Shown piece by piece: positions 34,694 to 61,259 of a stretch of 64,000 bases of DNA. A program made the position numbers and the translations under genes. The notes below the pieces were generated by a model. The model was not told the origin of the DNA and searched no databases. It saw only the letters and a program-made list of their open reading frames with translations. The first letter of the stretch is position 1, and the number at the start of each line of letters is the position of its first letter. Origin of the DNA: Christiangramia lutea (GTDB lineage: Bacteria; Bacteroidota; Bacteroidia; Flavobacteriales; Flavobacteriaceae); NCBI RefSeq assembly GCF_022489035.1, contig NZ_JAKVTV010000002.1, positions 248,001 to 312,000 of the forward strand, written 5' to 3'.

Positions 34694-34795
34694 GATTTTT
34701 GATTTTTTTCAATTGAAATTAAAATTAGTTAAGCTTTGAATGCTTACCGAATCTTTAGGAAATATTTAATATCGAAATCTTAAAACAGGATATAT

Positions 34796-34805
34796 ACTTA
34801 TAAGT
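34796..34805. promoter_or_regulatory. Palindrome upstream of the SatD-like gene
   Basis: ACTTATAAGT is a perfect 10-bp palindrome. Variants of the half site ATAAGTT recur at 34813 and within the larger palindrome at 34842. Confidence 0.4.
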
Positions 34806-34841
34806 TATATAAATAAGTTTCTATGCTTATAAATATATAAT

Positions 34842-34859
34842 ATAAGTTTTAAAACTTAT
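34842..34859. promoter_or_regulatory. 18-bp perfect palindrome, candidate operator
   Basis: ATAAGTTTTAAAACTTAT is a perfect palindrome that ends five bases before the -7 element of the SatD-like gene, so a bound protein would cover the promoter. The SatD-like protein itself has a C-terminal helix-turn-helix and is the obvious candidate binder. Confidence 0.5.
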
Positions 34860-55603: not shown

Positions 55604-57118
55604 ATGGCGCTAGAAACATTTGGTATTGAAAAGAAGAAAGTAGACAAGAAATTATACGATTATCAGCAGAAGGACATTAATAAGATCTTTGGGGTAATAG
55701 ACGAGAACCCTGAGAACTATAATCTCCTTTATCAGCTGCCAACCGGTGGTGGTAAAACTGTGATTTTTTCTCAAATGACCAGGGAATATATTCAAAGGAC
55801 GAATAAAAAGGTCCTTATTCTCACTCATAGGATCGAACTCTGTAAACAAACCTCTAAAATGTTATCTGGGTTTGGTGTGCGTAATAAGATCATAAACAGC
55901 AAAGTAAAGGAATTGCCAGACCAGGATGATTACATGTGTTTCGTGGCGATGGTGGAAACGCTTAATAATCGTTTGAACGATGAAAAGCTGGAGATCCAGG
56001 ATATAGGTTTGGTGATCATTGATGAGGCACACTATAATTCTTTCAGAAAATTATTCAAGTTTTTTGAGAAATGTTTCATCCTTGGGGTTACCGCTACTCC
56101 GCTGAGTTCTAATATCAAGCTTCCCATGAAGGATAATTATAGAGAGCTTATTGTTGGAGACTCTATTAACTCCCTGATCGAAAAGGGCTTCCTGGCTAGA
56201 GCAAATATCTATAGTTATAACGTGGGGCTTACCAACCTTAAGGTTGGTATGAACGGGGATTACACAGTAAAATCTTCGGAAGAACTTTACTCTAACTATA
56301 GTATGCAGGAGAAACTTCTTACGGCATATTATGAAAGATCGAAAGGAAAGAAAACTTTGATCTTCAATAATGGTATCAATACTTCGGTTGAAGTTTATCA
56401 TACATTCAAAAATGCCGGTTTACCTATAAGGCATCTTGATAACACCACAAGCAAACAGGACCGGAAGGATATTCTTAAATGGTTCAAACATACACCAGAT
56501 GCAATTGTAACTTCGGTAAGTATTCTAACCACTGGATTTGATGAGCCTACGGTTGAGACCATCATTCTTAATCGTGCAACCAAATCGCTTACCCTGTATT
56601 TCCAGATGATAGGGCGTGGTTCCAGGGTACTGGAAGACAAAAGCGAATTCAACGTTATCGACCTTGGAAATAACATGGCAAGGTTTGGACACTGGAGTAC
56701 TCCTGTTGATTGGAAACAGATCTTTAGATCTCCAGATTTCTATTTCGAGAATCTGCTTAGTGATGAAGAGATCGAAAGGGAGTTTCAATATGAAATGCCA
56801 CCAGAGATCAGGGAACAATTTTCTAATTCCGAAAATGTTACTTTCGATGTAGAAGCAGCTTATGATGAAGTGATCAAAAAAGGACTTAAGTCGAAGACAG
56901 TGCTGGAATGGTCTATGGACCAGCATGTGAAAATGTGTGTGGAAAATAGTGAAGATGTATTTGATGCCCGAATACTTGCAAAGGAACTTAAGGATGATAT
57001 AGCTTCAAGAATAAAGCAATATTCCTACTGTATTAGTAAGAGTACTAAAAATTACAGAGACTGGCTTGAAGAAGATTATTCCCGTAGGTTAAGAATGCAG
57101 ATCAATAAGGAGTTTTAA
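55604..57118 (+). CDS. DEAH-box superfamily 2 helicase
   Basis: A 504-residue stand-alone SF2 helicase core. Motif I is PTGGGKT at 46-52, motif II is DEAH at 140-143, motif III is GVTATPL, and motif VI is QMIGRGSR in the second RecA-like domain. The layout is like type I restriction R subunit or RadD-type helicases, but no nuclease or methylase domain or partner is next to it. The start is set by the promoter at 55547. The last four bases overlap the convergent PBP1A stop. Confidence 0.88.
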   Translation: MALETFGIEKKKVDKKLYDYQQKDINKIFGVIDENPENYNLLYQLPTGGGKTVIFSQMTREYIQRTNKKVLILTHRIELCKQTSKMLSGFGVRNKIINSKVKELPDQDDYMCFVAMVETLNNRLNDEKLEIQDIGLVIIDEAHYNSFRKLFKFFEKCFILGVTATPLSSNIKLPMKDNYRELIVGDSINSLIEKGFLARANIYSYNVGLTNLKVGMNGDYTVKSSEELYSNYSMQEKLLTAYYERSKGKKTLIFNNGINTSVEVYHTFKNAGLPIRHLDNTTSKQDRKDILKWFKHTPDAIVTSVSILTTGFDEPTVETIILNRATKSLTLYFQMIGRGSRVLEDKSEFNVIDLGNNMARFGHWSTPVDWKQIFRSPDFYFENLLSDEEIEREFQYEMPPEIREQFSNSENVTFDVEAAYDEVIKKGLKSKTVLEWSMDQHVKMCVENSEDVFDARILAKELKDDIASRIKQYSYCISKSTKNYRDWLEEDYSRRLRMQINKEF

Positions 57119-59418
57119 TTATCCTTATCTTTTTTACCGAAAAGACGATTGAAAAAACCTTTTTTCTTTTTTTCCTTTTCGTCACCACGGTTTCTGTCAT
57201 TCTTATTTTTTCCTGAAAATAGCCTTTCAAAAAAATTATCCCTTTCCTGAGGAGGGCACTCCATAAGCTCTGCAAGTTCAGCCGAAAGAGGTTGAAATCT
57301 GGCGTTTGTGATCTTGTTGAATTCTGAATTCGCATTCATTTTTTGCATTAATCTTGCAAAAATTGGCAAGGCAGAATTAGCTCCCTGGCCAATAGCGGTA
57401 TTTCTGAAACCAATGCGGTGATCATCTGCCCCAACCCAGGAAACACAAACGAGATTAGGAGTAATACCTACGAACCATCCATCTTTATTGTCCTGTGTTG
57501 TGCCAGTCTTTCCAGCAATATCATTGTTCAGTCCATATCTATAGCGTAGCCGGGAAGCAGTACCTTCGTTCACTGTAGCCTGCATCATATTTAACATGAT
57601 CTTCCTTGTATCTTCGGAAAAAGCCCTTTTCTTAGAAACTACAGGTTTGAATTCAGCTAGTAGGTTTCCATTTCCATCCTCAATTTTAGTAATGTAATAG
57701 GGTTTAGAGTAGAGCCCATCATTAACGAAACTGGTATAGGCTGAAGTTAGCTCGCTTAAATTTAGAGAAGCTGTACCAAGTGCGATAGAGGGAACTTTAG
57801 GTAGATCAGATTCAATTCCCATTTCCCTGGCCTGGGTTATAACATTATCTATTCCGGTTTCCATCAGAACCTTTACCGCGATAGTATTCATAGAACGGCT
57901 TAGTGCCGTCTTTAGATTATAATTCATGTTAGGATCATCGCCTTCAGAAGAAGAATTGGATGGTGTCCATCCATCTTCATAGGTAACTTCTCTTACTGAG
58001 AAGTAGGAACATGGGTCAATTCCATTTTCCAGTGCTGCCGTATAGACAAAAGGTTTGAAGGTAGAGCCTACCTGTCTTTTACTTTGTGCAACATGGTCAT
58101 ACTTGAAAAACCTGAAATCTACACCTCCAACCCAGGCCTGTACACCTCCGTTTTCTGGATTCACCGCTAGTAATCCCGAATTCAGAAATTTTAAATAATG
58201 GGAAATACTATCGATGGTACTTACATTTTTCGTCTCCATCCCATCATAACTGAACAATTCTGTAGGATGTTTTTGTTCGAGCTTCTTTAGAATTTCGGCT
58301 TCGCTAAGGCCTTCCTTCTGAAGAGATTGATATCTTCCAGATCTTTTGATGGCGTCATCCAGTATTTGCTTATTTTTAATCCATGGAGCATAGTTGCCAT
58401 AGGATTTTTCATGCTGTTCCTGCAACTCTGCCATATGTTCCAGCATAGCTTCTTCGGCTAGACGCTGCATATCATAGTTAAGCGTAGTGTGTACAATGAG
58501 TCCGTCGCGGTAGATATTATATTTCTGCCCGTCTTTATTTCTAAGGGTGTCCAGCACTTTACTAACGTCCTTTCTTACCTGTTCTCTAAAATATGGGGCA
58601 ATTCCCTTATCATGACTATAACTTTTATAGTCCAGGATTAGAGGAAGTAATTTAGCCTCTTCGGCTTCTTCCATGCTTAGATAATCATACCTGGCCATTT
58701 GCATTAAAACAACATCTCTTCTTAGCCTGCTTCTTTCCGGGAAAATTCTTGGATTATAATAGTGGCTCGCTTTTAACATTCCAACTAAAACAGCAGCCTC
58801 CTCTAGGCTAAGGGCTGAAGTATGCTTATCGAAGAATTTCATGGAGGCACTTTCAATTCCGTAGGTATTGTCACTGAAAGGAACCGTGTTAAAGTAAAGC
58901 TCGATGATCTCATTTTTAGAGTAGATATCTTCCAGCCGTTTGGCGATAATCGCCTCCTGCATTTTATTGATCACGATTCCAAACATGCCAAAATCACGAC
59001 GTCCATAGATGTTTTTGGCGAGCTGTAGAGTTATAGTACTACCACCTCCGGCAGACTCATCCTGTAATAGAATAGATTTAAAAAAGACCCTCAAAAGGCT
59101 GCGGTTATCTATGCCATCATGTTCATAAAACCTAGCATCTTCAGTGGCTATTAAGGCTTCGATTAGATGTTGCGGAAATTGGTCAAAATCTATAGGTTGC
59201 CTGTCGAAAACATAAAATTTCCCAATGAGCTTTCCATTTGCCGCGAGTACCTGCGTAGCCTTATTTTGCTTTAACTCGGTAAGTTCTTTAGAACTCGGGA
59301 TCTTTCCCCACAGGCCAAAATAAATACTTCCAAAAAATAAGAAGAACAGGGCAATAAGACTAAGAAATATTATTAAAGCCCATTTAAGTTTGGGGTGCTT
59401 TTTTATTCTTTCTAACAT
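57115..59418 (-). CDS. Class A penicillin-binding protein 1A (transglycosylase/transpeptidase)
   Basis: Builds peptidoglycan: polymerises lipid II and crosslinks peptides. The 767-residue protein has a membrane helix at 13-36, a GT51 transglycosylase domain with catalytic E93 (ATEDARFYEHDG) and GGSTITLQLAKN at 125-136, and a transpeptidase domain with SxxK (STFKPFVY), SxN (SRSMN) and KTG (KTGTTQDNKDGWF). A TTG 10 codons upstream is open, but the ATG at 59418 gives the usual short cytoplasmic tail. The C-terminus is very basic (KNKNDRNRGDEKEKKKKG), as often in flavobacterial PBP1A. Confidence 0.94.
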   Translation of the reverse strand: MLERIKKHPKLKWALIIFLSLIALFFLFFGSIYFGLWGKIPSSKELTELKQNKATQVLAANGKLIGKFYVFDRQPIDFDQFPQHLIEALIATEDARFYEHDGIDNRSLLRVFFKSILLQDESAGGGSTITLQLAKNIYGRRDFGMFGIVINKMQEAIIAKRLEDIYSKNEIIELYFNTVPFSDNTYGIESASMKFFDKHTSALSLEEAAVLVGMLKASHYYNPRIFPERSRLRRDVVLMQMARYDYLSMEEAEEAKLLPLILDYKSYSHDKGIAPYFREQVRKDVSKVLDTLRNKDGQKYNIYRDGLIVHTTLNYDMQRLAEEAMLEHMAELQEQHEKSYGNYAPWIKNKQILDDAIKRSGRYQSLQKEGLSEAEILKKLEQKHPTELFSYDGMETKNVSTIDSISHYLKFLNSGLLAVNPENGGVQAWVGGVDFRFFKYDHVAQSKRQVGSTFKPFVYTAALENGIDPCSYFSVREVTYEDGWTPSNSSSEGDDPNMNYNLKTALSRSMNTIAVKVLMETGIDNVITQAREMGIESDLPKVPSIALGTASLNLSELTSAYTSFVNDGLYSKPYYITKIEDGNGNLLAEFKPVVSKKRAFSEDTRKIMLNMMQATVNEGTASRLRYRYGLNNDIAGKTGTTQDNKDGWFVGITPNLVCVSWVGADDHRIGFRNTAIGQGANSALPIFARLMQKMNANSEFNKITNARFQPLSAELAELMECPPQERDNFFERLFSGKNKNDRNRGDEKEKKKKGFFNRLFGKKDKDN

Positions 59419-59508
59419 TTGTTCATGATAAAGTTTGCAAATAAACAAATGTTTACCCCATGCTAACTGACTTTAAGCTTATTTTAATGCTTTTTTAACC
59501 AAAAATTA

Positions 59509-59536
59509 TAGCCGGTAAACTAGGGTTTACCGGCTA
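59509..59536 (-). terminator. Strong hairpin closing the small-ORF array
   Basis: TAGCCGGTAAAC (59509-59520) pairs perfectly with GTTTACCGGCTA (59525-59536) around a 4-base loop. On the minus strand it is followed by TATAATTTTTGG, so it should end transcription of the array before it reaches the PBP1A gene. Confidence 0.75.
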
Positions 59537-59637
59537 GGTTAAGAAACATTTCATATGGTAGTTAATTTTAGCAACCATAAGCTAAGTCCATAATAGGGGA
59601 GCAGTTTGCTGCCGTGATGAATTGATGATCGATGAAT

Positions 59638-59772
59638 TTAAGCATAAAAGCTTTTTTCATGCCATTTTAGGTAAACATCCGGACTTCGTAAGTTTAAAAA
59701 TGGTCTGCGATGAGTGACCCCGTTACCTTTCTGATTTTCGAAATCCTGGATGACGCTTTCTAAAGTTCTCAT
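59638..59772 (-). CDS. 44-residue small protein, array member D
   Basis: Reads from ATG 59772 to TAA 59638. The product begins MRTLESVIQD and ends KWHEKSFYA; it is not homologous to copies A-C beyond the M-x-T-L start. Its leader (ATCATCAAAATCATCAAT before the ATG) is the same as for copies A-C, at the same 138-base spacing from copy A. It is likely translated from the same transcript. There is no signal peptide, and the function is unknown. Confidence 0.55.
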   Translation of the reverse strand: MRTLESVIQDFENQKGNGVTHRRPFLNLRSPDVYLKWHEKSFYA

Positions 59773-59808
59773 GATTGATGATTTTGATGATTGATGAAAA
59801 ATTTAATT

Positions 59809-59910
59809 TTAAGCGAATCTTCTTCTATTGCTGATACTGTATGAGCTTGAATTAGCTTCAGTATTCATAAAAGATTTTCTGTTCTTGGTGTTTGATGATA
59901 AAGTTGTCAT
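59809..59910 (-). CDS. 33-residue small protein, array copy A
   Basis: Reads from ATG 59910 to TAA 59809. The product starts MTTLSSNTKNRKSFMNTEAN, has the patch YSISN at 24-28, and ends RRRFA. It is Ser/Asn-rich and cationic (six Lys/Arg, one Glu), without cysteine or hydrophobic segment. Residues 1-23 are identical in copies A, B and C, although three codons in this stretch differ synonymously between A and B. That pattern indicates the peptide is translated and selected. Confidence 0.65.
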   Translation of the reverse strand: MTTLSSNTKNRKSFMNTEANSSSYSISNRRRFA

Positions 59911-59946
59911 AATTGATGATTTTGATGATTGATAAAAAATTTAATT

Positions 59947-60048
59947 TTAAGCGAATCTTCTTCTACTGTTAATAATGTATGAGCTTGAATTAGCTTCAGT
60001 ATTCATAAATGATTTTCTGTTCTTGGTATTCGATGATAAAGTTGTCAT
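59947..60048 (-). CDS. 33-residue small protein, array copy B
   Basis: Reads from ATG 60048 to TAA 59947. It is the same as copy A in residues 1-23 and 29-33, but the patch at 24-28 is YIINS. Compared with copy C one codon of the first 23 differs (GCT/GCC, synonymous). The ORF length is exactly conserved while the spacers vary. Confidence 0.65.
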   Translation of the reverse strand: MTTLSSNTKNRKSFMNTEANSSSYIINSRRRFA

Positions 60049-60082
60049 AATTGATGATTTTGATGATTGATGAAATTTAATT

Positions 60083-60184
60083 TTAGACGAATCTTCTTCT
60101 GCTGTTAATATTGAATGAGCTTGAATTGGCTTCAGTATTCATAAATGATTTTCTGTTCTTGGTATTCGATGATAAAGTTGTCAT
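60083..60184 (-). CDS. 33-residue small protein, array copy C (first in transcript)
   Basis: Reads from ATG 60184 to TAA 60083, the copy nearest the promoter region. The patch at 24-28 is FNINS and the last residue is Val rather than Ala. Its stop codon and the leader of copy B are directly adjacent. No Shine-Dalgarno site is seen; an A/T-rich leader, as is common in this phylum, precedes each copy. Confidence 0.65.
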   Translation of the reverse strand: MTTLSSNTKNRKSFMNTEANSSSFNINSRRRFV

Positions 60185-60218
60185 AATTGATGATTTTGAT
60201 GATTGTTTCTATTTAAAA

Positions 60219-60243
60219 GACGACGAACAAGTAAATCCGTTAC
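60219..60243 (-). promoter_or_regulatory. ECF-like promoter candidate of the array
   Basis: On the minus strand GTAAC (60243-60239) and CGTC (60222-60219) are separated by 16 bases, resembling ECF sigma factor promoters (AAC at -35, CGTC at -10). No TAnnTTTG element is present in this stretch. A start near 60212 would leave a leader of about 28 bases before copy C. Confidence 0.35.
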
Positions 60244-60267
60244 AGTACTATGTAATAAAAGGTACTG
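60243..60267. promoter_or_regulatory. CAGTAC/GTACTG dyad upstream of the array
   Basis: CAGTAC (60243-60248) and GTACTG (60262-60267) form an inverted repeat with 13 bases between, next to the -35-like element. It could be a regulator site. Confidence 0.4.
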
Positions 60268-60355
60268 AATTAACATATTTTTAACTTTAAAGGTAATTAT
60301 CTGTGTGCCTGTAATTTGCTGGAAAGACCAGTAAATTCAAAGTATTGTTAATCTT

Positions 60356-60404: not shown

Positions 60405-61259
60405 ATGAATAAATGGGCTGCAATTATCATTATTGGGGTTCTTGTAGTTGCAGGAATTATATATGGTATTTATGAATCTACCGATTATGATTTTGAGGAT
60501 GCTGAAAAATCATACCGGATAGTCAACAAATGGGAGTTGCCCTTTGAACTTGAAGAGATTTCAGGAATTCACTGGATAGGGGACAACCAAATTGCCTGCA
60601 TACAGGATGAAGATGGAATTATTTTCATTTTTGATTTAAAGACTTCGAAGATCGTAGACCAGTTTGAATTTGGAGAATCAGGTGATTATGAAGCTTTGAC
60701 TTTTTTGAATGGAGAATACTGGGTTATAGAAAGCAATGGAAAATTAATAAATGTCAAGGATTGGAATAATGATTCGGGAGATACAGAACTAATACAGCTT
60801 GAATTTGAATATCGAAACAATATTGAAGGTTTAGCAGCCAGTCCCGAGGGAAATCTTTGGTTAGCGGTTAAAGATCGAAATCTGGATAATCGTGGTGATT
60901 TCAAAGGTATTTATGCGTTCGAACCTGAAACCCGTGATCTGGAAAGAGAGCCGGTTTTAAAGATCCAATATGATGATCCTGCTTTCGATGTTCTAAGAAT
61001 TAATAATCCCAGAAAACTAATACGTCCCTCTGGTCTTACCTTTCACCCAGTAACCAATGAAATTTATGTGCTGGATGCTGAATTTCAGAAATTTATTGTT
61101 ACAGATAGATCGGGTAAAATAAAGAGACTACATCTGCTGGATCCTGAGGAATTTTCGCAACCTGAAGGGATATGCTTTAGTCCGTCAGGAAGAATGTTCA
61201 TTTCGAATGAAGGCCTGGGCGGGAAGCCAAATATAATTGAGGTTGAAGAGTTGGAATGA
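60405..61259 (+). CDS. SdiA-regulated (YjiK-like) domain protein
   Basis: A 284-residue protein with an N-terminal membrane anchor (hydrophobic residues 4-22) and a beta-propeller-like exported domain. Segments such as EEISGIHWIGDNQIACIQDEDG, EALTFLNGEYWVIES, IEGLAASPEGNLWLAVKD and PEGICFSPSGRMFISNEG are the blades typical of the SdiA-regulated/esterase-like phytase family. The exact activity is unknown. Its stop directly abuts the stop of the convergent dipeptidase gene. Confidence 0.82.
   Translation: MNKWAAIIIIGVLVVAGIIYGIYESTDYDFEDAEKSYRIVNKWELPFELEEISGIHWIGDNQIACIQDEDGIIFIFDLKTSKIVDQFEFGESGDYEALTFLNGEYWVIESNGKLINVKDWNNDSGDTELIQLEFEYRNNIEGLAASPEGNLWLAVKDRNLDNRGDFKGIYAFEPETRDLEREPVLKIQYDDPAFDVLRINNPRKLIRPSGLTFHPVTNEIYVLDAEFQKFIVTDRSGKIKRLHLLDPEEFSQPEGICFSPSGRMFISNEGLGGKPNIIEVEELE

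Follow-up and report, generated by a model that had tools for sequence, protein, structure and literature searches.

A tandem array of small basic protein genes behind a putative ECF-type promoter in Christiangramia lutea and other Flavobacteriaceae

Introduction

Operons of stress-regulated micro-proteins are, as a kind, already known. In Rhodobacter sphaeroides, the ccaF1-CcsR1-4 locus gives one transcript from an RpoHI/RpoHII promoter, with four homologous units in tandem and a Rho-independent terminator, and CcaF1, a protein of 71 amino acids, binds RNA and is linked to stress (PMC10253847, in the excerpt available). DUF1127 proteins, often under 50 amino acids in length, bind PhoR in Agrobacterium (excerpts of PMC10253847 and PMC12501420). 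In Flavobacterium psychrophilum, a CGT -10 box is attributed to extracytoplasmic function (ECF) sigma factors, and genes with the SM6 promoter include those for membrane proteins, parts of the type IX secretion system and the putative small RNA (sRNA) Rfp11 (excerpt of PMC9723704). Here, we analysed a tandem array of four small open reading frames (ORFs) in a 64,000-nucleotide stretch of Christiangramia lutea (assembly GCF_022489035.1, contig NZ_JAKVTV010000002.1, positions 248,001 to 312,000), hereafter the window, to which all coordinates refer. Phage lambda N, an anti-terminator, exemplifies the arginine-rich RNA-binding peptides, which have about 20-30 residues and contain Trp; the likeness of the array's products to it is one of size and composition.

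With ccaF1-CcsR1-4, as far as its excerpted description goes, the array shares small proteins, four tandem units, a terminator and, putatively, a promoter of alternative-sigma type (here ECF-like by sequence); the tandem units there are sRNAs accompanied by a single protein, whereas here they are protein genes. The array also differs from DUF1127/CcsR in belonging to Flavobacteriaceae, not Alphaproteobacteria, and membership in DUF1127 was rejected because none of the members scanned matched that Pfam family. The likeness to SM6 rests on the -10 element, and the excerpted text of PMC9723704 gives no -35 element and names no small-ORF array.

Results

Direct reading of the window sequence identified four tandem ORFs on the minus strand, three with 33 codons and the last with 44, preceded by a putative promoter and followed by a terminator-like hairpin:

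60270..60285, minus strand: GTTAA-N6-GTTAA, a direct repeat with a period of 11 bp (60285-60281 and 60274-60270) that lies upstream of the promoter; a site where an activator may bind
60239..60249, minus strand: -35 region AGTACTGTAAC of the putative ECF-sigma-type promoter, with TGTAAC at 60244-60239; from sequence, genus and family comparison
60218..60222, minus strand: putative -10 element CGTCT, 16 nt after TGTAAC; from sequence comparison
60083..60184, minus strand: 33-amino-acid ORF 1, product MTTLSSNTKNRKSFMNTEANSSSFNINSRRRFV; from ORF reading, genus relatives and codon check
59947..60048, minus strand: 33-amino-acid ORF 2, product MTTLSSNTKNRKSFMNTEANSSSYIINSRRRFA; same evidence
59809..59910, minus strand: 33-amino-acid ORF 3, product MTTLSSNTKNRKSFMNTEANSSSYSISNRRRFA; same evidence
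59638..59772, minus strand: 44-amino-acid terminal ORF, product MRTLESVIQDFENQKGNGVTHRRPFLNLRSPDVYLKWHEKSFYA; bridges the 33-amino-acid type to the wider W-x3-RR[FY] family
59509..59536, minus strand: Rho-independent terminator-like hairpin (12 pairs, loop of 4, T-rich tail), which ends the array before the gene of a penicillin-binding protein (PBP)

A preliminary description of the window had reported these four ORFs, and its coordinates and 136-138 bp spacing were confirmed: the three 33-codon ORFs lie 138 and 136 bp apart, and Tandem Repeats Finder assigned the array a period of 138 with 3.2 copies (score 757). Its statement that length changes fall only between ORFs also held, the spacers between the 33-codon ORFs varying from 34 to 36 nt while the lengths of the three are constant. 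The leader that it had described as shared by all ORFs, ATCAATCATCAAAATCATCAATY, lies in full 5′ of ORFs 2-4, but only its 3′ part precedes ORF 1. The range that it had given, 59568-60270, contains the array; the 30-amino-acid ORF at 59568-59660 has no support as a gene, and the terminator lies just outside. A 31-amino-acid ORF at 60181-60276 was rejected: it runs into the promoter, and what it shares between species is conserved promoter DNA read in frame. An Rfam match to a snoRNA family at 59493-59613 scored 24.8 bits against a cut-off of 136 and was attributed to chance. The alternative-sigma-type promoter, the family-wide distribution and the kinship of the 33- and 44-codon ORFs described below were not covered by the preliminary description.

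The array promoter follows the pattern AGTACTGTAAC-N16-CGTCT(A/T)TT, and its two elements and their spacing match what we take to be the consensus of ECF sigma promoters. Transcription would start at about 60213-60209. In the genus (Christiangramia/Gramella), TAGTACTGTAAC-N16-CGTCT(A/T)T was found upstream of the array in 24 of 25 loci, one locus per genome, with a spacer one base longer in L023; the locus without a match was L155. The promoter also occurs in Gillisia, Salegentibacter and three other loci outside the genus, as well as before the 43-amino-acid peptides of two genus g43 genomes (L173, L175). It is kept before strongly diverged peptides (in Gillisia, Salegentibacter and others), with small changes in the -10 part in some of the copies outside the genus. 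We infer that it may be read by an ECF sigma factor and answer envelope or related stress.

Comparison within the genus indicated that the array is under purifying selection at the protein level, as the preliminary description had proposed. The check that it had suggested, a search of related genomes, returned relatives of the 33-amino-acid peptides at E<=0.1 in 21 of the 24 genus genomes. The top match of each genome had an E between 7.8e-16 and 0.03, so that a few are weak (0.02-0.03 in two genomes). Relatives of the 44-amino-acid peptide occurred in all 24; in one genome, 67% complete, an internal stop codon interrupts the match. The ratio of nonsynonymous to synonymous differences per site (pN/pS) between genus members was 0.37 for the 33-codon set (28 sequences, mean pS 0.57) and 0.45 for the 44-codon set (24 sequences, mean pS 0.76). 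For these sets, a regular expression (regex) picked genus ORFs whose length is exactly 33 or 44 codons; their pairs are not independent, and members of 29-32, 43 and 46 amino acids and those of other genera fall outside them. Across the 28 genus 33-mers, M1, T3, T8, K9, R11, F14, M15, T17, E18 and A19 are invariant; T17 and A19 each use four codons with the residue never changed, which together with the pN/pS values argues for selection on the protein.

Codon comparison of the window's own 33-mers agreed with the reported pattern: residues 1-23 are identical in all three with four codons differing synonymously (synonymous differences at codons 6, 7, 13 and 19, and beyond them at 26), and replacements are confined to residues 24, 25, 27, 28 and 33. 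The same description had taken this for the layout of peptide precursors, in which a constant leader is followed by a core that diversifies, and this part did not stand. In the 28 genus sequences, positions 29-32 hold only [RK]3-[FY], so that the variable stretch is a linker bracketed by a conserved middle motif and an Arg-rich aromatic C-terminus; conservation thus nearly reaches the C-terminus, and there is no signal segment. With the C-terminus conserved and the linker variable, the leader/core reading fails.

The promoter was then used to follow the array across Flavobacteriaceae, with a strict pattern, AGTACTGTAAC-N17-GTCTNTT, that includes no coding sequence. It matched 62 of the 397 family genomes, 58 of them once and 4 twice, and these represent 47 of 237 genera; the reversed pattern matched none of the 397. 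In a class-wide sample, the window's own genome alone matched (1/385), 12 others of the same family being without a match; the reversed control matched one genome. Of 66 promoter places, 65 were examined, and the remaining one lies in a genome (G280) whose array and promoter were known from other searches. Small ORFs of the same kind follow the promoter at 62 of the 65 sites, 57 recognised by a regex (W, then R-R/N-F/Y, within 700 bases of the promoter) and five by eye (L258, L262, L263, L266 and L281), the window itself being among the five. At least two copies were recognised by the regex in 42 of the 65 loci, and on the opposite strands it matched 0/63 and 0/63. Most promoter-found arrays were missed by sequence-only profile searches.

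Bases upstream of the -35 region are conserved as well. Over the 65 family sites, the GTTAA-like repeat retains T-34 in 96%, A-32 in 96%, T-23 in 96% and A-21 in 100%, and the dinucleotides TA (-15/-14) and CA (-3/-2) hardly vary. The 11-bp period of the repeat resembles that of OmpR-type activator sites, and the copy at 60270-60285 may be one. A second shared operator, AGTAC-N12-AGTACT, was suspected because two dispersed copies carry it, and GTAC stood at its place in 33 of the 65 array promoters (joint pattern with the array promoter, RGTAC-N10-ATAGTACT). Some genomes also carry relatives of the peptides dispersed at other sites (L128/L167, L168, L169 and five more). Two of these copies, L168 and L169, stand behind a different control region, TATAGTACTTTG(C/T)TTTGCATAGTACTATA plus TATATTTG; AGTAC-N12-AGTACT occurs there with the TATATTTG promoter and is common to about half of the array promoters.

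Across the family, one to four ORFs, mostly of 28-44 codons, follow the promoter, and the peptides of most arrays end with [ST]-[KR]-x3-W-x3-R-[RN]-[FY]. Three classes were distinguished. Class I peptides have 28-29 amino acids (MRTLNNNQLT...[ST]KxxxWNxKRR[YF]R) and occur in one to three copies; a 43-46-amino-acid ORF follows in 24 of 32 loci (in L264 only from an internal ATG) and a 22-25-amino-acid ORF in six. Class II peptides have 36-39 amino acids (TES[RK]...[YF]FSxF..SKRxxWxxxR[NH][YF]), and class III consists of the Christiangramia 29-35-mers and 43-46-mers. In 12 of 20 class II loci (L277, L279, L280, L284, L291, L299, L300, L301, L303, L309, L311, L316), an ORF of about 28-43 amino acids with the string GFGW lies beside the W-RR peptides.

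Codon usage outside the genus points in the same direction as within it. In class I, W, the N that follows it (N+1), R+4 and R+5 are invariant over 53 distinct peptides; over 58 copies the Arg at W+5 uses six codons and N+1 two, and Ser-10 of class II uses four codons over 45 copies. Neighbouring copies with identical peptides differ synonymously in 7 of 7 pairs. The 44-mers of L039, L040 and L041 end with WYSRRRYA, the Gillisia ORFs with W-x2-[RS]RRYEF and those of Salegentibacter with W-x2-KRR[YF]. By sequence, the 33- and 44-amino-acid ORFs form one superfamily in which the 33-mers appear to have kept the F-M-N and RRRF parts and lost the W. The peptides were correctly described at the outset as cationic: net charge was +4 to +8 in 110 of 112 regex-positive peptides. 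Counts of motif, charge, start context and hydropathy in this study refer to regex-positive ORFs.

The ORF starts carry sequence signals of flavobacterial translation initiation. In F. johnsoniae, initiation is favoured by adenines at -3, -6, -12 and -13 (PMC6847099, in the excerpt available). Of the 112 regex-positive starts, 103 had adenine at -3, 105 had it at -12, 104 at -13 and 60 at -6. In 30 of 57 loci, the first base of the promoter lies 61-71 bases ahead of the first regex-positive start, which implies a 5′ leader of about 20-30 nt; in the remaining loci, an unscored ORF often precedes the regex-positive one.

A regulon search of the 24 genus genomes with TACTGTAAC-N17-GTCTWTT, at most one mismatch being permitted, returned 50 matches spread over 22 genomes, of which 22 were arrays; the reversed pattern returned 13. 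We read 21 of the 28 non-array matches and one weaker site of the window's genome. A gene for a 112-amino-acid DUF4870-type membrane protein follows the promoter at seven of these sites (L232-L237, L250; one copy confirmed by Pfam, E 5.8e-35), and one for a Cys-containing protein of 70-74 amino acids at eight (L231, L238-L243, L248). The latter protein is probably exported, judging by eye from an N-terminal hydrophobic stretch. A TGTAAC-type -35, N16 and a CGTC-type -10 thus stand before several unrelated genes, the mark of an ECF regulon. The GTTAA repeat is missing from the seven DUF4870 promoters, and one TTAAA is present in 7 of 8 promoters of the 70-74-amino-acid protein. In the window's own genome, the promoter type precedes a 74-amino-acid member of that protein group at G000:C27:121818-121850 (L231, L191); this protein had no significant Pfam or NCBIfam match, and its relatives with the promoter occur in seven other genus members.

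The window's three 33-mers and 44-mer had no Pfam match at E<=1, and none of the peptides scanned had a significant match in Pfam or NCBIfam, in line with the earlier remark that no known precursor class fits. Outside one set of 18 members, the other small peptides scanned likewise lacked any Pfam match at E<=1; in that set, weak Pfam matches were limited to DUF3950, DUF1496 and NKAIN (1/18 each, E 0.035-0.25), and PHROGs gave weak matches at E 0.074 and 0.32. Among the matches listed in the open-licence PubMed Central (PMC) literature, none concerned these peptides or the array promoter; of four peptide strings and an 11-base promoter string, only the DNA string appeared there, in unrelated contexts. 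The proposal of an undescribed small-peptide family therefore apparently holds, and we regard both the protein family and the promoter-array unit as undescribed within the open PMC literature.

The array is flanked by separate genes:

57115..59418, minus strand: PBP1A-type transglycosylase/transpeptidase, downstream neighbour; separate unit outside the array
60405..61259, plus strand: SdiA-regulated-like protein, divergent neighbour

Neighbours of the array in the genus are PBP1A, the SdiA-like protein and an M19 dipeptidase. The SdiA-like gene lies beside it in 20 of 20 genus loci tested and PBP1A in 19 of 20, the remaining one being a contig end. Upstream of PBP in 67 loci (L046-L112), scanned over 1200 bases with one regex and with little upstream sequence in L102 and L112, family ORFs were present at L046, L047 and L048 only, which include the sister genera Salegentibacter (L046) and Gillisia (L047); regex matches at L097 and L101 were rejected as unrelated ORFs. 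The PBP relatives nearest to the window's own (L033-L045 and L048) belong to Christiangramia/Gramella. In the 65 family loci, long ORFs were clustered and the 25 largest clusters named by eye. Recurrent neighbours were helicase-like proteins (15), the M19 dipeptidase (11), ExbD-like proteins (11), PBP (4) and SdiA-like proteins (4), some of them on either side and at varying distance, and therefore the array is not tied to one operon. The M19 dipeptidase, which recurs in 11 of these loci, is an array neighbour in the window too, and this may reflect old synteny or a functional link. Elsewhere in the window, 34793-34859 contains a short AT-rich tandem repeat (29 bp, about two copies).

Discussion

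The array looks like an overlooked small-protein system and not a chance repeat. From the sequence comparisons, the locus is very probably a selected tandem operon with a conserved ECF-type promoter and part of a regulon. With moderate confidence we favour a fuller reading: a family-wide operon under ECF control, whose basic micro-proteins are raised in dosage by the tandem copies and would act as cytosolic stress effectors that bind RNA or protein. That the peptides bind RNA is a tentative suggestion from composition and analogy. Still more doubtful is the extension to a Flavobacteriaceae class of ECF-induced, gene-multiplied micro-proteins (28-44 amino acids, W-x3-RR[FY]) that would serve as RNA-binding stress regulators, an independent counterpart of DUF1127/CcsR.

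Several observations weigh against this reading. The exact promoter pattern was not found in 335 of 397 family genomes, so either the system is patchy or the pattern is too strict, and sequence profiles by themselves matched few genomes (15/299, 3/299 and 18/397), with several weak chance hits. At 3 of the 65 sites (L260, L278, L302), the promoter leads instead to an acidic repeat protein. This protein has ELIEIEEE / YLPxNFNP repeats and an N-terminal hydrophobic stretch, and the one copy scanned had no Pfam or NCBIfam match. Of the seven assorted other genes behind the promoter pattern in the genus, some probably reflect chance. No sigma factor was recognised by eye among the 25 largest neighbour clusters. 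The conserved upstream bases (GTTAA repeats, CA before AGTAC) likely point to another regulator too, given the near-invariance of the GTTAA repeat, TA and CA over the 65 sites. The W typical of the family is missing from the window's 33-mers, and the class logos owe some of their conservation to the regex, which demanded W and R-[RNHFI]-[FYHKI] and favoured W, R+4 and R+5. AlphaFold2 models were of low confidence (mean predicted local distance difference test score 62 for a 33-mer and 60 for the 44-mer) and therefore lend no structural support to RNA binding.

Among other explanations, the peptides might be adaptors, produced under stress, that attach to a sensor kinase of the membrane or to another regulator of the envelope and adjust its activity, with no action on RNA, which we regard as unlikely. 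The promoter type is common to the DUF4870 membrane protein and the probably exported protein, and DUF1127 micro-proteins of similar size bind PhoR in Agrobacterium (PMC12501420, excerpt). Against it, the conserved region is short and strongly basic, and no kinase was recognised by eye among the 25 largest neighbour clusters, although a partner need not adjoin the array.

Being small, cationic, rich in W and R and multicopy, the peptides also recall small toxins, such as those of type I toxin-antitoxin systems, or membrane-active cationic peptides kept intracellular. This is improbable: there is no hydrophobic stretch or signal segment (maximum 17-residue Kyte-Doolittle value 0.33 over 112 peptides, below -0.4 in the window's ORFs), and a membrane-spanning type I toxin was rejected on that ground. 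Sigma-70-type promoter-like sites in the window numbered 6 against 6.0 in shuffles, in a scan that does not cover flavobacterial promoters and may therefore miss an antisense gene.

Very improbable is the idea that the transcript is a regulatory RNA whose ORFs are incidental or secondary. The small size and intergenic position of the unit, together with a promoter and a terminator that belong to it alone, would suit this idea, and the putative F. psychrophilum sRNA Rfp11 has an ECF-type (SM6) promoter and a strong predicted structure (PMC9723704, excerpt), but third positions change while residues are conserved in several genera, and most ORFs have initiation signals. Folding of 16 arrays chosen from the 65 gave no structure beyond shuffles (mean z +0.45); the window array including the terminator gave z -1.20, with 3 of 20 shuffles as good, and the window had no Rfam match at the gathering threshold. 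A structured sRNA was rejected on these grounds.

Precursors of a ribosomally synthesized and post-translationally modified peptide (RiPP), pheromone or bacteriocin, with a conserved leader and variable core, are exceedingly improbable and were rejected. The tandem copies do carry a variable stretch, and context alone cannot dismiss a link to the M19 peptidase, but that stretch is a linker, conservation of the C-terminal [RK]3[FY] comes close to that of the middle, signal and hydrophobic segments are absent, and the neighbours otherwise vary. No typical peptide-maturation enzyme was recognised by eye among the 25 largest neighbour clusters.

We return to the favoured reading, that of basic micro-proteins under ECF control. 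An alternative (ECF-type) sigma factor would switch on a self-contained micro-protein operon, with transcription beginning just past TGTAAC-N16-CGTCT. The transcript would span the three near-identical 33-codon genes and the related 44-codon gene and end at the hairpin terminator, each ORF being translated from its own initiation context and the tandem copies raising the peptide dosage. Lacking a hydrophobic segment, the peptides would stay cytosolic, where the basic aromatic C-terminus may bind an anionic partner. RNA would be the first choice, in view of the Arg-rich constant part, which has an aromatic residue as anchor, and of the similar organisation of ccaF1-CcsR1-4; a regulatory protein, e.g., a sensor kinase, would be nearly as good a target, given the PhoR-binding DUF1127 proteins of Agrobacterium.

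Genes this short fall below annotation limits, and a system that one strict pattern recovers in 47 of 237 sampled genera can thus escape notice. The specificity of the promoter allows its use as a tag for arrays of any sequence. It also offers a first handle on an ECF regulon in an ecologically important bacterial family, and makes the role of tandem micro-proteins in a stress regulon testable in laboratory flavobacteria.
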